Shown piece after piece: positions 5,498 through 38,002 of a stretch of DNA of 42,429 nucleotides. Position numbers and translations under genes: made by a program. The DNA is from Dichelobacter nodosus (GTDB lineage: Bacteria; Pseudomonadota; Gammaproteobacteria; Beggiatoales; Beggiatoaceae). Within the stretch, counting starts at the first letter, position 1. Each line of letters begins with the position of its first letter. Where the stretch lies: the NCBI GenBank assembly GCA_020720085.1, contig DYPE01000010.1:1-42429 (forward strand), read 5' to 3'. The notes under the pieces were generated by a model, which did no database searches, was not told the origin of the DNA, and saw only the letters and a program-made list of their open reading frames with translations.

Positions 5498-6295
5498 TTA
5501 AAATTTCACATTATCATAATTTTTTAAGTCTTCTTCATCTAAAAAGCCATATTTTTTGAATACCATTCTGCCTTCCTGTGAAGTTGCATACTGCATGAAT
5601 TCTTTTGTAAGCTCAGGATATTTTGATGTTTTTAGCAAATCCAATGTCAACAGCGCTTTTTCCGCATACTGTGTATCTATTGTCAATGGTTCTACAAAGT
5701 TTGTATTGTCATCCCAAAAGGTAGTTGCATACCAATTTAATACCACATCGGCTTCACCATCTTTTATTGCTTTGGTTAAATTACGTGAATCTGTAGTTAA
5801 GGATACAGCATTCAACATCGCTTCTTCGTAATTGCCAAATTTAGTGAGTATCTTTTTGGTTTCCGCGCCCACGCTGCCGCTGTCTGCATTGCCCAAGATC
5901 ACTTTATATTGACTGTCTGTGAGTACATTCAAATCAGCGGGTATATTTTTAGGGTTACCTTTTTTTACTACTAAACTTGCTTTGTTATATCCTACAAATA
6001 CTGCATCCAACAGTAAACCTTCTGTTATGTATTGAGTTCTGAAACTAACTGAACCAGGCATATAGAGATCGCCTTTGCTGCTGGTTTTTATGCTGTCGTA
6101 TAAATCTTTACTGCCTCCTTGCAATATTTTAATCTCGCAATCATGTGCTTTTTTGAAATTTTCAGCCAATTCATTTACTGGTCTTACCATGGTTATTCCA
6201 ATATAAAATAATAATTCTTTTTTGTCTTCCGCCATTGCTTGACCAAGCCATGAAAATAGCATAATTAATGCTATAGATTTTTTGAAAAGTTGCAT
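5498..6295 (-). CDS. Periplasmic substrate-binding protein, ModA/SBP_bac_11-like
   Basis: A 265-residue exported solute-binding protein. The N-terminus MQLFKKSIALIMLFSWLGQA, followed by MAED, is a typical Sec signal peptide with cleavage after AMA. The mature part starts with a beta strand (LLFYIG) and the motif GGSKDLYDSIK, comparable to the gsSg.L..qI region of ModA-type proteins; the C-terminal MVFKKYGF also matches that fold. The ligand is unknown. No ABC permease or ATPase gene is next to it, and a hybrid kinase lies just downstream, which suggests a sensory rather than a transport role (inference). The ATG at 6295 is chosen because AGGAGAG lies seven bases before it; an in-frame ATG at 6337 has no such site and would spoil the signal peptide. 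The gene is AT-rich like the kinase. Confidence 0.82.
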   Translation of the reverse strand: MQLFKKSIALIMLFSWLGQAMAEDKKELLFYIGITMVRPVNELAENFKKAHDCEIKILQGGSKDLYDSIKTSSKGDLYMPGSVSFRTQYITEGLLLDAVFVGYNKASLVVKKGNPKNIPADLNVLTDSQYKVILGNADSGSVGAETKKILTKFGNYEEAMLNAVSLTTDSRNLTKAIKDGEADVVLNWYATTFWDDNTNFVEPLTIDTQYAEKALLTLDLLKTSKYPELTKEFMQYATSQEGRMVFKKYGFLDEEDLKNYDNVKF

Positions 6296-6332
6296 ATCAT
6301 CTCTCCTGTTTGTAAAAATAAATGTCGTCATA

Positions 6333-6354
6333 CGCAAGAATTATAGTTCTTGCG
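6333..6354. promoter_or_regulatory. Perfect hairpin/operator-like palindrome in the binding-protein leader
   Basis: CGCAAGAA (6333-6340) and TTCTTGCG (6347-6354) form a perfect 8-bp inverted repeat with a 6-base spacer. It falls at or just after the predicted transcription start of the binding-protein gene and 38 bases before its ATG. It could be a repressor operator, a 5' stabilising hairpin, or the terminator of the ankyrin gene. Confidence 0.5.
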
Positions 6355-6363
6355 CGCGTTAAA

Positions 6364-6392
6364 ATTTTAATGTTTTATACACAGAAAGTCAA
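6364..6392 (-). promoter_or_regulatory. Sigma-70-type promoter of the binding-protein gene
   Basis: On the minus strand, TTGACT (6387-6392) and TAAAAT (6364-6369) are separated by exactly 17 bases. Transcription would start near 6357, giving a leader of about 60 bases that begins with the hairpin at 6333-6354 and includes the AGGAGAG ribosome-binding site. Confidence 0.65.
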
Positions 6393-6423
6393 TTAAACTT
6401 ATTTTAATGAAAAATAAAATTAT

Positions 6424-7935
6424 TTATTTAGTTTCTTCTGTAAATTCTTCTTCTGGCATGAAACTCAGAGAGGAGCCATCCGCATTGGTATGATATATCG
6501 ATTTGGTTATAGGTTTTTCTGCGTCTGCATTTTCTTGCATAGATAAATCGGTAGGTGGTTTTTTTTTCTTTTTTGTTACTTCGCCAAGTAATTTAATAAT
6601 TCCTTGTGCATTTTTATCGGCTTCTACTTTCTGCTCTTCTGGCAAAGCTTCAATCGCGCCCCAATTGGAAAACGCATGTTGGGATAAGGTAAGGCCCGGT
6701 GGGTGTAGGTTGGCGTCTGCGCTGTGCTGTAATAAGAATTCTACATTGCGCAGGGAGTTGGCCAGCACAGCGGCAAACAGTGGGGTGTAACCTTGTGGGT
6801 CTGGCTGATTAACGTCCATGCCAGAATCTAGCAATAATTCCATAAGTTGGGTAGATTTTTTGTATGCCGCTGCATGAAACAGCAGGCGTGTGGCATAGGG
6901 ATCAATGCCACGTTTTAGAAAATAGCTTACGATAGGAATATGGCCTTTTTGTGCGGCCAATTCCACTGCGGTATGGCCGCTGTCGGTTTTACTGGCCATG
7001 TTTGCGCCTTTGGTGAGCAGCGTTTCTACCATATCCAAGTGGTTGTTTGCAGACGCTAAATGCAGGGGAGTTTGGCCGCGTTTACCTTTAGCGGGTAAAT
7101 CGGGATTGGCATGATAGGTAAGGAGTAATAGCGTGCTCATTGCCAGTAGTTTTTCTTTATTCTGATCCTCAAAATAAGGCGTGGCTGCCAAATAGTGCAA
7201 CGCGGAAAAACCTGGTGTTTCATCTTGAATATTGGGGTCGGCGCGTTGCTTAAGTAAGAATTCCATCATTTTGATATTCTTACTATGTTTGGCCACCAAT
7301 AATAAGGGGGAGCGGCCTGCATAGGCTGAATCGTCGGCAGATTGGGTGAGCTGGTTGATGTCCGCGCCGTGTTCTAGCAATAATTGCACTACCCCGCCTA
7401 ACCCCAGGCGGGCGGCGGTGTGCAGCGGACTTTCACCATGCTCGTCAAAGTGTTGTAGCGAAGCGCCTGCGTCCAACAAAGTCCGTAAAGTATCACGGCG
7501 GCGTGGCTGGTACGTGGCATAAGCTTCGTTGAGATTCGCCTTTACCCACAGTTCGTCGGTAGCCACTGCGGCGTGTAGTGGGGTTTTATTGTGAAATAGG
7601 CTGTTGATGTCCGCCTGGTGTTCCAGCAATATGCGTACAATGTCGGTGCGAGCGCATTGTGCGGCTTTATGCAATAACGTATTGTCGTCCCAGTCGCGGC
7701 AGCGCGCATAATTGGTGTTAAATGCTAAGTATTTGCGCACGGTTTCTATGTCATTGCGCACTACCGCGTAGAGCGCCTGTGTGAACACGTATTCTGGCGG
7801 ATTGTCTAGTTCATCGCGCGAATATCCACCGGTCTCTTGCACGACAGGTTGGGGGGATTCTTGCTCTGCTGGTTTGGATTCCAAGGCGCCCTTGGTGTGT
7901 TCTACCATTTGTTTGAGTTTGTCAAATAAGCCCAT
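6424..7935 (-). CDS. Ankyrin-repeat protein
   Basis: A 503-residue cytoplasmic protein without a signal peptide. After an N-terminal segment (MGLFDKLKQMVEHTKGALES) it holds about nine ankyrin repeats between residues 80 and 440. Typical repeat cores include NTLLHKAAQ, SPLHTAARLGLGGVVQLLL, TPLHLASANNHLDMVETLL and HTAVELAAQKGHIPIVSYFL. A basic stretch (TKKKKKPP) and an acidic C-terminus follow. Ankyrin repeats bind other proteins; the partner is unknown. The ATG at 7935 is preceded by GAGGA six bases upstream, so the longer in-frame start at 7989 is rejected. The gene is less AT-rich than the kinase and binding-protein genes but lies on the same strand just upstream of their promoter. Confidence 0.88.
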   Translation of the reverse strand: MGLFDKLKQMVEHTKGALESKPAEQESPQPVVQETGGYSRDELDNPPEYVFTQALYAVVRNDIETVRKYLAFNTNYARCRDWDDNTLLHKAAQCARTDIVRILLEHQADINSLFHNKTPLHAAVATDELWVKANLNEAYATYQPRRRDTLRTLLDAGASLQHFDEHGESPLHTAARLGLGGVVQLLLEHGADINQLTQSADDSAYAGRSPLLLVAKHSKNIKMMEFLLKQRADPNIQDETPGFSALHYLAATPYFEDQNKEKLLAMSTLLLLTYHANPDLPAKGKRGQTPLHLASANNHLDMVETLLTKGANMASKTDSGHTAVELAAQKGHIPIVSYFLKRGIDPYATRLLFHAAAYKKSTQLMELLLDSGMDVNQPDPQGYTPLFAAVLANSLRNVEFLLQHSADANLHPPGLTLSQHAFSNWGAIEALPEEQKVEADKNAQGIIKLLGEVTKKKKKPPTDLSMQENADAEKPITKSIYHTNADGSSLSFMPEEEFTEETK

Positions 7936-8981: not shown

Positions 8982-10325
8982 CTAACGTTCGCGCAAAGCG
9001 CGTTGTGATATGTGCGTTACTGGCGCAGTAAGGTATTCCCACACCGTGCGCGCGCCAATGATAATGTCCACGGACACCACCATGCCAGGCAAAATGGGCA
9101 GCGACAGTGGTTTTCCTTGTGCATTGCCGGTTTGTATGGTCTGGTGGGCTGTGGTTAGCCGCACCAAATAATACTGGCCGCCGTGCTCGTCATTCAAACT
9201 GTCCGCGCTGATGTGATCCAGACGGGCAGACAGGCCACCGTACCAGGCGTATTCATAGGCAGTGAAGGTAATCATCGCGGTTTGGCCGGGGTATAAAAAG
9301 CCAATGTCTGCGGGTTGCACACGCGCTTCAATCAATAAGTTATCTTCGCTGGGCACGATTTCGACCAAGTCCATGCCGGGCTGCACTACGCCGCCCAGCG
9401 TGGTAAGGTTCAGCCGCTTTACCGTGCCCGCTACCGGGGAACGCACCGTGGCGCGGCTGACCCGATCCGCTAAAGCCGGGCGTTTTTCCAGCAGTCCGGC
9501 TAATGTGGCGCGCGCTTCATTGCGTTGCTCAAGCAGCCGCCCGCGCAACGCGGTTTGCCATTCGCGCATTTTTTGGCGCACTTCCGCCGCTTCGGCTTCA
9601 ACGCGGGGAATGCCGGCTTGCAAGGTTTGCTGGCGACCTTCCAATTCGCCAGTTTCGCGCTCCAGGCGTAGCAGTTCTATTTCCGATAGCACGCCTTCTT
9701 TGACCAGCGGGCGTGAAATATTGAGTTCTTTTTGCGCCAAACCTACATTACGCGCCACTTGCTTTTGTTGTGCGCGCAATTCCGCTAAAGCGTGTTCTTT
9801 TTGCGTAAGCTGGGCTTCCCACGCGGACTGGGCATCGGCCCATTCTTGGCGGTGAGCGGCGAATAATTCCGCCTCAGCCGTTGGCAGTGCGGGCGTGGTT
9901 TCTGTTGGCGCATTCTCTTTGCCGCGCGCTTGCGTCCATGCCAATTCCGCGTCCAAGCGCGCCATCTTGGCTTGCAATGTCAGGCGTTGTTGTTCGGTTT
10001 CGCCATATTCGGCACTAAAATAGGTGGTGTCCAGCAACAATAAAGGCTGTCCCTGGGTCACATGGCTGCCTTCTTGCACCAGCAGTTCAGCCAGAATACC
10101 GCCTTCTAAATTTTGTACCACTTGAATTTGGCGGGCGGGAATTACCTTGCCGCTGCCTCGCACCACCTGATCCACTACAGTCCAGCGCGCCCACACGATA
10201 AACACAACCAGCAGCAGAATGCACAACCACAGCAAACTATGCGGAAAACGGTAAGCCCAAGCGTTGGCTAAAGCGGTGGCGGGGTGGGGCGCAAGCGCGT
10301 TAATAGGCTTGGAATACAAGCGCAT
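8982..10325 (-). CDS. HlyD-family type I secretion membrane fusion protein
   Basis: A 447-residue inner-membrane-anchored periplasmic adaptor. A short cytoplasmic tail precedes one transmembrane helix (about 29-46). The first half of a lipoyl/biotinyl-like domain follows (VQNLEGGILAELLVQEGSHV, about 69-88), then a long alpha-helical hairpin rich in Ala, Glu and Gln (about 110-275), then the second lipoyl half and beta-barrel (RSPVAGTVKRLNLTTLGGVV onward). These adaptors link an ABC exporter to a TolC-type channel. Neither partner is adjacent, so it is an orphan in this window; the exporter may lie elsewhere. The ComEA-like gene is upstream with a hairpin between, so co-transcription is uncertain. 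Confidence 0.9.
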   Translation of the reverse strand: MRLYSKPINALAPHPATALANAWAYRFPHSLLWLCILLLVVFIVWARWTVVDQVVRGSGKVIPARQIQVVQNLEGGILAELLVQEGSHVTQGQPLLLLDTTYFSAEYGETEQQRLTLQAKMARLDAELAWTQARGKENAPTETTPALPTAEAELFAAHRQEWADAQSAWEAQLTQKEHALAELRAQQKQVARNVGLAQKELNISRPLVKEGVLSEIELLRLERETGELEGRQQTLQAGIPRVEAEAAEVRQKMREWQTALRGRLLEQRNEARATLAGLLEKRPALADRVSRATVRSPVAGTVKRLNLTTLGGVVQPGMDLVEIVPSEDNLLIEARVQPADIGFLYPGQTAMITFTAYEYAWYGGLSARLDHISADSLNDEHGGQYYLVRLTTAHQTIQTGNAQGKPLSLPILPGMVVSVDIIIGARTVWEYLTAPVTHISQRALRER

Positions 10326-10379
10326 GGCAGAGTGAACGAGGGCGGCTCATTGGGCGAGGACAAACTACCGCCCCTACCC

Positions 10380-10410
10380 GGACTGGCAATCCAGCACAGA
10401 CTGCCAGTCC
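10380..10410. terminator. Stem-loop between the ComEA-like and HlyD genes
   Basis: GGACTGGCA (10380-10388) and TGCCAGTCC (10402-10410) form a perfect 9-bp stem with a 13-base loop, 24 bases beyond the ComEA-like stop codon. There is no clear U-tract on the minus strand, so it is either a weak terminator or a dispersed palindrome; the adjacent GTAGGGGCGG motif also recurs near 20034. Confidence 0.45.
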
Positions 10411-10433
10411 ACCCTTAACATAGTTAAGCGACT

Positions 10434-10931
10434 TCACTGTTCTGATTTCTTGTCCTGTGCATTGTCTCCCTTTTTATCTTGCTCCTTATTGTCGCCGTCC
10501 TTTTTACTGTCTTCTTTTTTATCTTTACCCTTGTTGCCACTGTCTTTTTTGTCTTCTGCATTATCGCTGTCTTGTTGACTTTCTTCTTTATTTTTTCCCT
10601 TGCTGCTGCCTTTTTTACCCTCTTCCGCAGGTGGCAACGTCATTCCGACGGCTGATTTGCCAGAAATTAAAAGATTGTCGCGATTTTTTTCAACCAGCTT
10701 GGGGCCAACACCAGGCACATCAAGAAAGTCCTTCAAATCCTTAAAATTACCATTTGCTGCCCGCCATTCAACAATGGCTTGTGCCTTTTTCGGGCCTACG
10801 CCAATTAAATTTTCCTGCAACGCTTGCGCATTCGCTTGGTTAATGTCCACAGGATCCCCCCATGAAATCATGGGATATAATAGCAACGCCAACAGCCAGC
10901 TCGATTTTTTGACAAAACGAATCAAATACAT
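10434..10931 (-). CDS. ComEA-like helix-hairpin-helix protein with charged tail
   Basis: A 165-residue exported protein. The signal peptide (about 1-25, ending ISWG) leads into a ComEA-type double helix-hairpin-helix domain (VDINQANAQALQ, IGVGPKKAQAIVEWR, FLDVPGVGPKLVEKN; about 28-90) that binds DNA without sequence specificity. In competent bacteria ComEA pulls incoming DNA into the periplasm. The last 60 residues are almost entirely Lys, Asp, Glu, Ser, Gly, Asn and Gln in KKxD-type repeats, unusual for a simple ComEA; such a tail may be disordered. The ATG at 10931 has AGGAGG about six bases upstream. No other competence genes are nearby. Confidence 0.85.
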   Translation of the reverse strand: MYLIRFVKKSSWLLALLLYPMISWGDPVDINQANAQALQENLIGVGPKKAQAIVEWRAANGNFKDLKDFLDVPGVGPKLVEKNRDNLLISGKSAVGMTLPPAEEGKKGSSKGKNKEESQQDSDNAEDKKDSGNKGKDKKEDSKKDGDNKEQDKKGDNAQDKKSEQ

Positions 10932-11178
10932 ATAAACCTCCTGATCACTTTAACATGGAAAATAACCGATTGGCGCGTTGCGCCAGGTCAAACTGACGTA
11001 AGATCGGCGAAATCAGGCTGTTTGTCAATAGGGCGTGTGCTTACCCTCTCAACAGGTGCGGTTCTGGATGAAAAACACCGCAAAAGCGTGCAACGCCGCG
11101 TCCTGGCATGAAAACCATGCATTAGGTTGGGAATGGCTGTTGCCACACAAGCGTTTCGCGTCCACGCTGGGCTAAGGG

Positions 11179-11184
11179 TATAAT
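11179..11184 (+). promoter_or_regulatory. Probable -10 element of the aceE promoter
   Basis: A perfect TATAAT lies 59 bases before the aceE ATG in the 311-base gap between the ComEA-like gene and aceE. The best -35 is poor (TTTCGC, 19-base spacing), so an activator or an extended -10 may be needed. The rest of the gap (10932-11178) shows no supported gene; short open frames there lack coding signatures. Confidence 0.45.
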
Positions 11185-11242
11185 TGCGCGTAGCAGCCGC
11201 CAATGGCTTTACAATTGTTGCATTTTTTAAGGAAGCAAAATT

Positions 11243-13909
11243 ATGGTCAAGCGTGTAAATGAAAAAGTGGATTTAGACCCGGAAGAAACCCAAGAATGGC
11301 TGGAAGCGCTGGATTCAGTGCTGGCGCAGGATGGCGTGGAGCGCGCGCATTTTCTGCTGGAAGCGCTGATTGAAAAAGCGCGCCGCTCGGGCGCATATTT
11401 GCCGTATACCGCCAATACTGCGTATGTCAATACCATTCCGCCGCATCTGGAAGAACGCACCAGCGGCGACACCGAAATCGAATGGCGGTTGCGTTCTTAT
11501 GTGCGCTGGAACGCACTGGCCATGGTGGTGCGCGCCAACCGCATCAGCACGGAATTGGGTGGACACATCGCCTCATTCGCCTCAGCAGCCACGTTGTACG
11601 ACGTTGGATTTAATCATTTTTTCCGTGCGCCCAGCCATTCCCACGGCGGTGACTTGGTGTATTTCCAAGGCCATTCTGCACCGGGCATTTACGCCCGCGC
11701 CTTTTTGGAAGGCCGCATCAGTGAAGCGCAAATGGAAAATTTCCGCCAGGAAGTGGACGGCAACGGTTTGTCCTCGTACCCCCATCCCTGGCTGATGCCG
11801 GATTTTTGGCAATTTCCCACTGTGTCCATGGGCTTGGGGCCAATCCAGGCGTTGTATCAGGCGCGTTTCATGAAATACTTGCATGATCGCGGCGTTGCCA
11901 ACACCGAAGGTCGCAAAGTATGGGCGTTTCTGGGCGACGGCGAAATGGACGAACCAGAATCGCTGGGCGCGATTACACTGGCCGCGCGCGAAAAATTGGA
12001 TAATCTCATTTTTGTCATCAACTGCAACCTGCAACGGTTAGACGGCCCAGTGCGCGGCAACGCCAGCATCGTCCAGGAACTGGAAGCCGCATTTCGTGGT
12101 GCGGGCTGGAACGTGATTAAAGTGCTGTGGGGATCGTACTGGGATCCGTTGTTTGCCACCGACACCCAGGGCCTGCTGCGCCTGCGCATGGAAGAATGCG
12201 TGGACGGCGAGTATCAAAATTACAAAGCCAAGGGCGGCGCGTATACGCGCGAGCATTTTTTCGGTAAATATCCTGAGCTTAAACGCATGGTGGCCAACAT
12301 GAGCGACCAGGACATCTGGCGCTTGAACCGTGGCGGTCATGATCCGCACAAAGTCTATGCCGCGTATGCGGCAGCGGTGAAGCATACTGGCCAGCCCACG
12401 GTGATTCTGGCCAAGACCGTGAAAGGCTATGGCATGGGCGGCGCGGGCGAAAGCCTAAATCCCACCCATCAACAGAAAAAAATGGGCACCGACGAATTGC
12501 GCGCATTCCGCGACCGTTTCAATGTGCCCATTGCCGATGCAGACATCGCCAACGCGCCGTTTTACAAACCCGCAGACGACAGCCCGGAGATGCAATACCT
12601 GCACGCGCGCCGCCGCGAGTTGGGCGGCTATTTACCCAGCCGCCGCCGCACTGCCTCGCCGTTGGAAATTCCGCCGTTGTCCACATTTGACGCCTTGCTC
12701 AAAGGCAGTGGCGACCGCGAAATGTCCACCACCATGGCTTTTGTGCGCGTGCTCACCCAACTGACCAAGGACAAGTCCATCGGCAAAAACGTCGTACCCA
12801 TTGTGCCCGACGAAGCGCGCACGTTTGGCATGGAAGGCATGTTCCGCCAACTGGGCATTTACGCCTCGCAAGGCCAATTGTACGAACCTGTGGATTCCGA
12901 CCAAGTGATGTACTATCGCGAATCCAAGGACGGCCAAATTTTAGAAGAAGGCATTAATGAAGCTGGCGCAATGTCGTCGTGGATTGCTGCTGCCACCGCA
13001 TACAGCGCGCATGGCGTCAACATGATTCCGTTTTACATTTACTACTCCATGTTCGGCTTCCAGCGCGTGGGCGATCTGGCCTGGGCTGCGGGCGATTTGC
13101 GCGCGCGCGGCTTTCTCATCGGCGGCACTGCCGGGCGCACCACGCTGGCGGGCGAAGGGTTGCAACACCAAGATGGCCACAGCCATGTGCTGGCCAGCAC
13201 CATTCCCAACTGCGTGAGTTACGACCCGGCTTTTGCCTATGAAGTGGCGGTGATTGTACAAGACGGCCTGCGCCGCATGTACAAAGAGCAAGAAAGCGTG
13301 TTCTACTACATCACCGTGATGAATGAAAACCATCTTCATCCAGCCATGCCAGCAGGCGTGGAATCCGGTATCATTCAGGGCATGTATTTATTGCAGGAAG
13401 GCGGCAACCAACCGCTACGCACGCAATTGCTGGGCAGCGGCGCGATTCTGCGCGAAGCCATGGAAGCCGCCACCCTGTTGGCGCGCGATTGGGGCGTGGC
13501 AGCGGACATTTGGAGCGTGACCAGCTTCAATGAGTTGGCGCGCGAAGGCCGCCGCGTTGCGCGCTGGAATTTATTCCACCCCGAAGCAGCGCAGCGTGAA
13601 GCCTACGTCACCCGCTGCTTGCAAGGCCGCCACGGCCCAGCCATCGCGGCCACGGACTATATCAAAACCTACGCGGACCAAATCCGCGCATTTGTGCCCA
13701 TGCCGTATATTGTACTGGGCACGGACGGCTTTGGCCGCAGTGACAGCCGCAAGAAATTGCGTCGCTTCTTTGAAGTAGACCGTTATTACATTACGCTGGC
13801 CGCACTCAAAGCACTGGCTGATCAAGGCGCATTGCCCCCTGCCACCGTTACGCAGGCCATGCAAATGTATCACCTTGACCCGGAAAAACCCGCGCCCGAA
13901 ACGGTGTAG
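11243..13909 (+). CDS. aceE: Pyruvate dehydrogenase E1 component, homodimeric type
   Basis: This 888-residue cytoplasmic enzyme is the thiamine-diphosphate-dependent E1 of the pyruvate dehydrogenase complex. It decarboxylates pyruvate and acetylates the lipoyl groups of E2. The length matches the E. coli enzyme (887). The ThDP motif starts at GDGEMDEPES (about 231-240) and runs to the INCNLQRLDGPVRGN segment. The E1 glutamate that activates the cofactor corresponds to the Glu in EGINEAGAMSSW (about 573). AAGGAAG upstream supports the ATG at 11243. aceF (E2) and lpd (E3), often downstream in proteobacteria, are absent; a strong hairpin follows at once, so aceE is transcribed alone here. Confidence 0.97.
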   Translation: MVKRVNEKVDLDPEETQEWLEALDSVLAQDGVERAHFLLEALIEKARRSGAYLPYTANTAYVNTIPPHLEERTSGDTEIEWRLRSYVRWNALAMVVRANRISTELGGHIASFASAATLYDVGFNHFFRAPSHSHGGDLVYFQGHSAPGIYARAFLEGRISEAQMENFRQEVDGNGLSSYPHPWLMPDFWQFPTVSMGLGPIQALYQARFMKYLHDRGVANTEGRKVWAFLGDGEMDEPESLGAITLAAREKLDNLIFVINCNLQRLDGPVRGNASIVQELEAAFRGAGWNVIKVLWGSYWDPLFATDTQGLLRLRMEECVDGEYQNYKAKGGAYTREHFFGKYPELKRMVANMSDQDIWRLNRGGHDPHKVYAAYAAAVKHTGQPTVILAKTVKGYGMGGAGESLNPTHQQKKMGTDELRAFRDRFNVPIADADIANAPFYKPADDSPEMQYLHARRRELGGYLPSRRRTASPLEIPPLSTFDALLKGSGDREMSTTMAFVRVLTQLTKDKSIGKNVVPIVPDEARTFGMEGMFRQLGIYASQGQLYEPVDSDQVMYYRESKDGQILEEGINEAGAMSSWIAAATAYSAHGVNMIPFYIYYSMFGFQRVGDLAWAAGDLRARGFLIGGTAGRTTLAGEGLQHQDGHSHVLASTIPNCVSYDPAFAYEVAVIVQDGLRRMYKEQESVFYYITVMNENHLHPAMPAGVESGIIQGMYLLQEGGNQPLRTQLLGSGAILREAMEAATLLARDWGVAADIWSVTSFNELAREGRRVARWNLFHPEAAQREAYVTRCLQGRHGPAIAATDYIKTYADQIRAFVPMPYIVLGTDGFGRSDSRKKLRRFFEVDRYYITLAALKALADQGALPPATVTQAMQMYHLDPEKPAPETV

Positions 13910-35216: not shown

Positions 35217-36224
35217 TTACAGTTGTTCCCAGTATTCGTCTGGCATGTCTGCGCACATTTTTAGTGCGCCCATGCTGCCGCAAAATTCTGCATCGTCCAC
35301 ACATACCGCACGGCCCCCGCCATATGCGGCCAGACTTTTTTCAATTGCGCGGTCTATGCCCTTTAAGCGCGAGCCGCCGCCAGCAATCAGAATGTGGTTG
35401 CGCAGTTGTTCTTGAAAATCAGGATCAAAGCTGCCAACCAATTCTTGTATGGCTTGGCTGATGGGCTGGGTCAGTTTGAGGCAAGAGACGCGCAGAATTT
35501 CGGTAATGTCATATTCTGCGGGCACTCCTTTGGTGGTCAGTGTGACTGTAACCGGTTCAGCAACATCATGGACATAGCCATATTTCTCTTTGATGCGCTT
35601 GATTATTTGTGGTGTCAGTTGCACGTGCGGGTATGCGGTCAAAATAGCCTGGGTGAGTTCTGCATCTAAAAAATTCCCTGCTGTGGTCAAGGTGATTTGG
35701 TCAGCCTCTTCGCCGAACGAACCGTGCATACGGCACAAATCCGTAGTGCCCGCGCCAATATCGACAATCAAGCATTCATCAAAACGATCCAAGGCATAGG
35801 CCACGGCGAATGCCTCGCTAACAATCAATAGTTTATCTACCAGCGGTTGGGCGGCTTGCAACAGGATTTTTTTGCTGTTAATACTCGCTTGCGCGGGCAC
35901 GCCAATGGCCGCAAAAACTGCGTCTCCCTCGCGCCGTTCTGGTAGGGATTGCTCAATAAGGTGGCGCAGAATCAGCCGCGTGCTTTCTACCGCACGCGGC
36001 GTTTCGCGGATGACGCCATCTGCCAATGGCCATTCCAGGTCTAATGCTAAGCGGTTAGTTAACGCTTCTTCACCCAGCAAATATTCTTTGCCAAAACGTT
36101 TTTTGGCAATTAAATCTTTACTGTATCCCACACAGGACAACATACTGAGGCGTTTGCCCGTGGATGTGGCAATGGTGGAGCGGCTTGTACCAAGGTCAAT
36201 GCCAGCGTGAAAGGTCGTGGCCAT
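35217..36224 (-). CDS. MamK-like bacterial actin
   Basis: A 335-residue actin/Hsp70-fold ATPase. It shows phosphate-1 AGIDLGTSRSTIAT (7-20), phosphate-2 LIVDIGAGTTDLC (152-164) and the adenosine motif ILIAGGGSRLKGI. Glu137 and Asp155 have the 18-residue spacing of the catalytic pair of MamK from magnetotactic bacteria, and several stretches (SCVGYSKDLIA, LADGVIRE, VSEAFAVAYALD, QITLTTAGNFLDAEL, the terminal MPDEYWEQL) recall MamK more than MreB or ParM. MamK filaments position magnetosomes. No other magnetosome gene is visible here, so the cargo is unknown. GGAGGA six bases before the ATG supports the start. Upstream on the same strand is a small membrane coiled-coil protein that is a natural candidate partner (inference). 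Confidence 0.85.
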   Translation of the reverse strand: MATTFHAGIDLGTSRSTIATSTGKRLSMLSCVGYSKDLIAKKRFGKEYLLGEEALTNRLALDLEWPLADGVIRETPRAVESTRLILRHLIEQSLPERREGDAVFAAIGVPAQASINSKKILLQAAQPLVDKLLIVSEAFAVAYALDRFDECLIVDIGAGTTDLCRMHGSFGEEADQITLTTAGNFLDAELTQAILTAYPHVQLTPQIIKRIKEKYGYVHDVAEPVTVTLTTKGVPAEYDITEILRVSCLKLTQPISQAIQELVGSFDPDFQEQLRNHILIAGGGSRLKGIDRAIEKSLAAYGGGRAVCVDDAEFCGSMGALKMCADMPDEYWEQL

Positions 36225-36284
36225 ATGGGTTCCTCCAATCCGGTCAAAATAGCAGTTAAGTGAATTTGTCGTGTGGCTGTGACA

Positions 36285-36303
36285 ACGCGGCTGTTGGCCG
36301 CGT
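36285..36303. promoter_or_regulatory. Intercistronic hairpin before the actin-like gene
   Basis: ACGCGGC (36285-36291) and GCCGCGT (36297-36303) pair over 7 bp with a 5-base loop in the 84-base gap between the coiled-coil gene and the actin-like gene. It may set relative expression or mRNA stability of the two genes. Confidence 0.4.
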
Positions 36304-36308
36304 ATATT

Positions 36309-36680
36309 TTAAGAGCGGCGTAATTTTAGATTGCTTTCCAACAATCGCCGCAATAAGGATACCTTGCCCGTGTCCACAGCGGTAGAATTTGGTGCAACGG
36401 CAGGCGAGGATTCCACCACGGGTAACTTTTGCATAGCCAATTGAAATTCTTGGCGTAAGCTGTGAAGTTCTGCCTGGTGTTTTTCGCGCAATTGCTCCAG
36501 CTCGGTTTCCATCTGTGCCAGCGCAACATCGCTAAGCGCGTCAGGATTGTCGAGTTTAGCGCGCAGGCGGCGGAGTTCGTTATCTAAGTACCCGCGTTCG
36601 GCGCGCAAATAGCCGGTTAGCGCCCCGACCAGGGCGCTGCCCGCCAACCACGGCAATGCGGGCACAATAGGAATAGGCAT
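36309..36680 (-). CDS. Small membrane-anchored coiled-coil protein
   Basis: A 123-residue protein of no family I recognise. A hydrophobic N-terminal stretch (IVPALPWLAGSALVGALTGY, about 4-23) could be one membrane anchor. It is followed by a strongly charged helical region (about 27-90; e.g. LRRLRAKLDNPDALSD, MQETELEQ-like heptads) predicted to form a coiled coil, then a Pro/Val/Ser linker and a basic C-terminus (LLRRLLESNLKLRRS). AGGAG eight bases upstream supports the ATG at 36680. It lies 14 bases downstream of the CNNM-type gene and 84 bases upstream of the MamK-like actin on the same strand. It may tether actin filaments to the membrane (inference). Confidence 0.7.
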   Translation of the reverse strand: MPIPIVPALPWLAGSALVGALTGYLRAERGYLDNELRRLRAKLDNPDALSDVALAQMETELEQLREKHQAELHSLRQEFQLAMQKLPVVESSPAVAPNSTAVDTGKVSLLRRLLESNLKLRRS

Positions 36681-36694
36681 TCGGTGTTCTCCTT

Positions 36695-38002
36695 TCAGTC
36701 TTTTTTCAGCGGGATTCGCCCTGGCCAGGGCGGTTGTGCGCTGGTGGGTAAATATTGTGCCAAAATACGCACCAGTTTAATGGATTTTCCAGAAAGTTGA
36801 ACCAATTCCATGGGAATACCCGCAATACGCACGCTGGTTGGGGCGTCAGGAATGGCTTCCAAATATTCCAGCAGCAAGCCATTGAGCGTCTTGGGGCCGG
36901 AAGTGGGTAAATTAATATGCAAGGCTTTATTCAAATCACGCACCGTAATGCTACTATCAAGCAACACATTGCCCATTTCATCATGAAAAATTTCTTGATC
37001 AAACGCATCCGGGCTGGTGGTGAATTGGCCGACAATTTCTTCCAAAATGTCTTCCAGCGTGGCCAATCCCAGAATATCGCCATACTCATTCACCACCATA
37101 CCAATGCGGCGATGGTGTTTTTGAAAGTTAAGCAAAACCACGCTCAGTGGCGTGCCTTCAGGAATGTAATACATCTCGCGCGCTGTCGCGCGTAGCGTTT
37201 CCTTTGAAAAATGGTCTTGCTGAAATAACGGAATCAGTTTGCGTACATGGACAATCCCTACAATATTATCAATACTCCCCTGATACAACGGCAAACGGGT
37301 GTGGTGGGTATAGCTAATGGTTTCGACAATGGCTTGTAGCGGTTCGTTGAGATCAATGCCACTGATGTCCGCACGCGGCACCATGATGTCTTCTACAGTC
37401 ACGTTTTCCAAATCCAGAATGCTGACCAGCATATCGCGGTGCTGGTTAGACATACGGTTGCCGGATTCATATAGCATGGTGCGCAATTCGTCCAAACTGA
37501 GATGATGATGGTGGTCATTGCCGTGCACACGGATGCCGAAAAGCGCCAATAAACCATTGCCCGCTAAATTAGTGACATACACCAGTGGGCCGAGCAGTAT
37601 AAGCAAGGGGCGGATGACACGCGATGCTGGGTAGGCGATGGCTTCCGGGTATAGGGCAGCCAAAGTTTTTGGGGTAATCTCGCTGAAAATCAACACAATA
37701 AATGTCGTTGCCAATGCGGCCACCGCAATGCCCGCATCGCCTAAAAATTGAATGGTCAATACCGTGGCCAGCGACGAGGCCAGGGTATTGGCAAAATTAT
37801 TTCCCAATAAAATTACGCTAATCAAACGATCCGGGCGTTCTAGTAATTGCAGCAATGACCGAGCAGAAGGGTCTTCCTTGGCTCTGTGCCGTAGCCGCAA
37901 GCGGTTGATGGCCATCATAGAGGTTTCCGATGCGGAAAAAAACGCCGACATTATCAGCATAAGCACTAATAGCAACAGTAACATACCGCTATGCGGGTCC
38001 AC
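36695..38002 (-). CDS. CNNM/CorC-family membrane protein with CBS domains (YfjD/CorB-like)
   Basis: A 435-residue inner-membrane protein. The N-terminal DUF21/CNNM domain (about 1-185) has four hydrophobic segments and the SAFFSASETSMMAINRLRL motif. A CBS pair (about 205-330; VTVEDIMVPRADISGIDLNE, VVNEYGDILGLATLEDILEE) and a C-terminal CorC_HlyC domain (about 345-425) follow. The family is linked to Mg2+ and Co2+ export or resistance; older annotations call it hemolysin-like. The start is a GTG at 38002 behind GGAGGAGG (spacing about 12); no ATG gives a better N-terminus. The coiled-coil and MamK-like genes follow on the same strand, so the three may form one operon. Confidence 0.92.
   Translation of the reverse strand: MDPHSGMLLLLLVLMLIMSAFFSASETSMMAINRLRLRHRAKEDPSARSLLQLLERPDRLISVILLGNNFANTLASSLATVLTIQFLGDAGIAVAALATTFIVLIFSEITPKTLAALYPEAIAYPASRVIRPLLILLGPLVYVTNLAGNGLLALFGIRVHGNDHHHHLSLDELRTMLYESGNRMSNQHRDMLVSILDLENVTVEDIMVPRADISGIDLNEPLQAIVETISYTHHTRLPLYQGSIDNIVGIVHVRKLIPLFQQDHFSKETLRATAREMYYIPEGTPLSVVLLNFQKHHRRIGMVVNEYGDILGLATLEDILEEIVGQFTTSPDAFDQEIFHDEMGNVLLDSSITVRDLNKALHINLPTSGPKTLNGLLLEYLEAIPDAPTSVRIAGIPMELVQLSGKSIKLVRILAQYLPTSAQPPWPGRIPLKKD

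Follow-up and report, generated by a model that had tools for sequence, protein, structure and literature searches.

A Bbp-type actin and a conserved candidate membrane adaptor encoded directly upstream of it in a genome of the Beggiatoales

Geelhoed et al. (2023) described a clade of bacterial actins, named Bbp for "big bacteria protein", in Ca. Electrothrix gigas, Thiomargarita, Beggiatoa (among them Beggiatoa sp. 4572_84), Thioploca, Thiothrix, Desulfonema and others, with a similarity of at least about 65% to the E. gigas protein as the limit for inclusion (PMC10580974). The authors placed the clade between MamK and MreB and suggested that it has a role in structure or transport (PMC10580974). 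In Ca. E. gigas, bbp belongs to a three-gene cluster that also encodes a hypothetical protein without known domains and a Kelch-like protein; a general role for the Kelch-like protein was argued against, and no conserved partner was reported outside E. gigas (PMC10580974). In the literature searched we found no follow-up to that study on Bbp. Two related systems provide a frame for comparison. In the alignment of the magnetosome chain by MamK with MamJ and MamY, an adaptor links an actin filament to membrane-bounded cargo, and in MreB-RodZ an actin-like filament is combined with a single-pass membrane partner. Here, we describe a bbp gene and its upstream neighbour, and present evidence that the neighbour belongs to a widespread family of candidate Bbp adaptors.

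The window, by which we mean the whole stretch of 42,429 nucleotides that was analysed, comes from a genome of 2.97 Mb in 170 contigs that is 87% complete (G000). The features of the locus are as follows:

35217..36224, minus strand: bbp, a MamK-related actin-like ATPase of 335 aa with E137 and D155 (ORF, family scores, tree, alignment, AF2 model)
36232..36236, minus strand: Shine-Dalgarno-like GGAGG before the bbp ATG
36309..36680, minus strand: gene for the Bbp adaptor or candidate tether, 123 aa, with membrane helix, coiled coil, linker and C-terminal helix (profile, alignment, AF2 model)
36315..36371, minus strand: conserved tail helix at the C-terminus of the adaptor (residues 104-122), with an invariant Asn117 and with L120 and R121 conserved in at least 90%
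36429..36545, minus strand: predicted coiled-coil helix of the adaptor, residues 46-84 (AF2 model)
36591..36674, minus strand: hydrophobic segment near the N-terminus of the adaptor (residues about 3-30), a probable membrane anchor; Gly19 invariant (alignment)
36689..36693, minus strand: Shine-Dalgarno-like AGGAG before the ATG of the adaptor gene
36695..38002, minus strand: CNNM/CorC-type transporter gene, ending 14 bp upstream of the adaptor gene

The adaptor gene lies 84 bp upstream of bbp on the same strand, and the interval between them (36225-36308) contains a 7-bp perfect inverted repeat (ACGCGGC CAACA GCCGCGT). The CNNM gene that a sequence-only reading had placed at the flank is present and is possibly cotranscribed with the adaptor gene in the window. 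A search with tblastn found it beside the actin in none of the fetched loci; as a neighbour that is not conserved it carries no information, and it was rejected as a member of the module.

The window actin scores 375.7 bits against the NCBIfam MamK model (NF040964), below the curated cut-off of 400 bits, while the magnetosome-cluster MamKs of L053, a Mariprofundus MAG, and L033, from genome G116, score 450.9 and 496.2 bits. Its best match in the PDB is AMB-1 MamK (E 4e-78). The next-nearest actin with a solved structure, BeeR (PDB 8r2n), is 28% identical and occupies a separate branch of the tree; the BeeR model scores 188 bits. Matches to MreB models reach about 41-53 bits (TIGR00904, 41.2 bits against a cut-off of 365.75) and that to Pfam MreB_Mbl 57.5 bits, and the genome encodes a separate, genuine MreB of 529 bits. 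The Bbp-type actin itself is present in a single copy. The MamK-like motifs and catalytic Glu/Asp spacing pointed out earlier hold up on alignment: E137 and D155 correspond to E143 and D161 of AMB-1 MamK with an identical spacing of 18 residues, and their equivalents are invariant in 59/59 aligned sequences. An AF2 model of the protein (pLDDT 91) superposes on the MamK filament subunit 5ljv with a TM score of 0.94 and an rmsd of 1.3 Å (Foldseek). The actin fold, the ATPase residues and the shape of the filament subunit are shared with MamK. An MreB or chaperone identity, named beforehand in the sequence-only reading as its refutation, is ruled out by scores, tree and fold, which group the actin with neither MreB nor the DnaK-like proteins.

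A maximum-likelihood actin tree of 62 rows contains three distinct groups, the branching order among which is not firmly resolved. The window actin falls in a clade of 32 members with 100/100 support, apart from magnetosome-cluster MamK, that includes Thiomargarita and Thioploca MAGs as well as the record of isolate 4572_84 (L044), whose actin is 67.5% identical to that of the window. The magnetosome-cluster-type MamK group comprises 21 rows (support 89/99), and 12 alignment positions are fixed differently between it and the Bbp clade. A third MamK-like group has six members (97/93), four of which lie beside amidase genes. Judged by these sequence comparisons, the window actin is Bbp, a member of a known family, and not MamK proper. 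Of the original MamK assignment, the MamK-like filament gene stands and the name does not, the gene belonging to the Bbp lineage described in 2023 (PMC10580974). Records of Thiomargarita, Parabeggiatoa, Albibeggiatoa, Thioploca, Thiothrix and Zetaproteobacteria contain close relatives of it, with 59-75% identity. Bbp-type actins were found in 20 of the 43 genomes of the window's order, Beggiatoales, and, in an order-level search, in several Desulfobacterales; sampling of the phylum of G422 yielded no further close Bbp.

Two observations on the actin genes stand beside this classification. The third-group actins of L022, L025, L027 and L029 lie directly downstream of N-acetylmuramoyl-L-alanine amidase-like genes (by family search, L022 only); that of L022 scores 414.8 bits, over the MamK cut-off, and no magnetosome genes were recognised beside it. 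Genome G401 carries a second bbp copy (L086:6665-7663) that is broken by stops or frameshifts and adjoins adaptor fragments, and its intact copy is on another contig.

The NCBIfam MamK score might be read as the mark of a MamK, or of the leftover of a lost magnetosome gene cluster, and so might the Mariprofundus MAG, in which an adaptor-bbp pair is situated directly upstream of a magnetosome gene cluster (L053:5615-14987). The score is nonetheless below the family cut-off, and the fully supported Bbp clade is not nested within magnetosome-cluster MamK. Moreover, Zetaproteobacteria with magnetosome genes carry both actins, two of them holding one Bbp and one magnetosome-type MamK each. L053 (MamH, MamI and MamK over curated cut-offs) and G116 (MamM, MamN, MamA and MamK recognised by curated models) each possess a cluster MamK and a second actin of the window type, and the Zetaproteobacteria genome L050/L134 likewise has one MamK and one Bbp-type actin. 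These arrangements agree with the published account of Bbp as an actin clade separate from MamK and present beside it in magnetotactic genomes (PMC10580974). In family searches of the window genome, matches to MamB, MamO and MamQ are background only, at or below the levels in unrelated control genomes, whereas the magnetosome-bearing comparison genomes score far above it; the absence of magnetosome genes noted earlier for the locus thus extends to these three in the 87% complete genome. The window system differs from MamK with MamJ/MamY both in the clade of its actin and in a genome without magnetosome genes, and a magnetosome remnant, ruled out by the absence of MamB, MamO and MamQ together with the tree, is very improbable.

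In the AF2 model of the 123-residue product of the upstream gene, a single hydrophobic segment is combined with a coiled-coil helix and a further helix at the C-terminus, as anticipated in part by the earlier description of one possible membrane anchor and a coiled coil. The model (mean pLDDT 80) predicts helices at residues 11-44 (membrane) and 46-84 (coiled coil), followed by a disordered linker and a helix at 104-122 (the tail). A fold search with this model returned nothing significant. The protein matches no Pfam family, and in this, as in an actin that is not MreB, the pair differs from MreB-RodZ. Since tblastn with the window adaptor alone found no relatives, a profile and a motif were needed to find them. 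When the ORFs neighbouring bbp were clustered for the window and 31 further loci (some of these being short contigs), one family emerged that is encoded immediately upstream of bbp in 21 loci and at a distance of 3.3 kb in another. A profile from these 22 members, which exclude the window protein, matches that protein with E 1.8e-5. The final set numbers 28 adaptors from Beggiatoales, other gammaproteobacteria and Zetaproteobacteria. All but one (27/28) are encoded adjacent to bbp, which establishes the coiled-coil gene as a conserved neighbour of the actin and leaves its product a candidate tether. The lack of such a neighbourhood, the other refutation named in the sequence-only reading, is thereby answered.

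A membrane-like segment near the N-terminus is present in 28/28 adaptors, as is a C-terminal motif with the consensus KLAMLKxxxxDNxxLR, in which Asn is invariant and Leu and Arg are conserved in at least 90%. Because the motif was drawn from these same 28 members, the informative figures are the background counts: none of the 343 other ORFs of bbp loci carries it, nor does any of 494 ORFs from MamK, amidase-type and BeeR loci. Its absence from MamK loci is a further point against a MamK remnant. A tail common to the adaptor and to genes at the MamJ position was also considered and rejected, as the motif is missing from the gene that separates MamE from MamK in the fetched magnetosome clusters. 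The window adaptor is divergent, with 36% identity to its nearest relative and mostly 13-27% to the others, and it shows the build that defines the family, in which a coiled coil and a tail with N-x-x-L-R follow either a membrane helix or a receiver domain.

The adaptor profile was run over 61 genomes. Among the Beggiatoales it detected the adaptor in 19 of 20 genomes with Bbp and in 1 of 23 without (Fisher 5e-10, shared ancestry uncorrected). The exception with Bbp is G398, where bbp starts 141 bp from a contig end; G377 (87% complete) is the lone Beggiatoales genome without Bbp to give a full-length match, and a few other Bbp-lacking genomes gave marginal coiled-coil matches that do not reach the tail. 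In the Desulfobacterales, a protein with the tail is present in 6/6 genomes with Bbp and in 0/6 relatives without it (Fisher 0.002, shared ancestry uncorrected). In this version, of 343-361 aa, a receiver domain (Pfam Response_reg) is joined to the coiled coil and tail. Its gene is unlinked to bbp in five of the six genomes, where it is found at a different site or on a different contig. In the sixth, G1307, a single contig of 6.9 Mb, the gene immediately precedes bbp within a cluster that also contains CheA- and CheW-type genes. As many Beggiatoales adaptors had trained the profile, the stronger evidence lies in the absence of matches from Bbp-lacking genomes and in the unlinked Desulfobacterales proteins. 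That the gene is beside bbp by accident, as no more than a companion in an operon, would accord with the empty tblastn search but is extremely improbable in view of the profile evidence, the tail motif and a co-occurrence that persists even when the genes are unlinked. To what is known of Bbp, the present analysis adds the adaptor, the motif in its tail and the form with a receiver domain; no description of the adaptor family or of that form was found in a literature search of limited reach.

Several other genes recur near bbp. Members of a family that resembles P1B-type ATPases, but in which no CPC motif was recognised, occur within about 8 kb of it in nine loci (L084, L020, L048, L051, L052, L055, L056, L058 and L059), and in L084, from the closest relative (G405), two of them (5884-7905 and 9316-11313) flank the adaptor-bbp pair, one on each side. 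These genomes encode multiple related ATPases, with up to 19 matches if ordinary P-type ATPases are counted, and the window genome has a 67%-identical copy at C94:3008-5008. A ferrosome, suggested by the recurrence of the ATPase, was rejected, as the family is multicopy, lacks a recognisable CPC motif and is accompanied by no identified ferrosome gene. DUF697-like membrane proteins recur near bbp and near the P1B-type ATPases (L020, L056, L059 and L061), ORFs that by eye resemble phosphopantetheinyl transferases or acyl-carrier/NRPS proteins flank bbp modules in L084, L019, L020 and L052, and response-regulator or histidine-kinase genes recur beside bbp in L046, L050, L051 and L169.

We propose that the two genes encode a tethered actin-like cytoskeleton, in which the 123-aa protein probably acts as a dedicated Bbp adaptor that ties the filament to a membrane. 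Bbp would polymerise with ATP into MamK-like filaments. The N-terminal helix of the adaptor would be inserted in the cytoplasmic membrane or in that of a membrane-bounded compartment, its coiled coil would dimerise into a short rod, and the flexible linker would present the conserved C-terminal helix, which would bind Bbp and so tie the filament to the membrane. The linkage of a filament to membrane-bounded cargo, a property of the MamK system, is for Bbp a proposal. A coiled coil and tail that travel with Bbp on two unrelated N-terminal parts are most simply understood as a Bbp-binding adaptor end. In the Desulfobacterales this coiled coil and tail are borne by a degenerate receiver domain, which suggests that the tail is the Bbp-facing part and that the N-terminus chooses the attachment site, which in the window organism would be a membrane. 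The tail could instead have a partner other than Bbp that is likewise restricted to these genomes.

The main rival holds that the small protein regulates Bbp as a nucleator, capper or depolymeriser and bears no load, its membrane helix only confining the sites at which filaments begin or stop. A coiled coil that ends in a short tail helix would suit such a regulator as well as a tether, and the degenerate receiver domain hints at a regulatory origin. In 6/6 Desulfobacterales receiver domains, however, Gly replaces the phospho-acceptor Asp (alignment judged by eye), which makes classical phospho-regulation unlikely. Sequence by itself does not tell a regulator from a tether; we regard the regulator as the less likely of the two. 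A narrower version of the tether, which overlaps with the proposal above, would have Bbp form a skeleton at the cortex, which would support large or filamentous cells and be held to the inner membrane by the adaptor, with no organelle or inclusion being positioned. The published structural suggestion and the mostly giant or filamentous form of Bbp carriers are in its favour, and a membrane tether fits the cortex, but not all carriers are big (PMC10580974); we consider this version plausible but less likely than not. For the tether in its broader form, the candidate structures to be positioned or supported are the cell cortex, a vacuole, a sulfur-globule invagination or membrane, and a signalling array. 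Sulfur globules or other inclusions, the cargo envisaged in the sequence-only reading, are possible, and the present evidence speaks neither for nor against them.

Bbp had been proposed as a genetic correlate of giant cell size, without a known general partner or mechanism. We tentatively suggest, at somewhat less than even confidence, that Bbp serves large sulfur bacteria as a general-purpose actin, connected to different cell structures by exchangeable adaptors that share one filament-binding tail, carried by a membrane helix in the gamma- and zetaproteobacteria and by a pseudo-receiver, once beside chemosensory genes, in the Desulfobacterales. The short, definable tail opens the attachment of Bbp to tests in common laboratory hosts by means of peptides or fluorescent fusions, and it provides a sequence signature with which further attachment sites may be sought in other giant bacteria.
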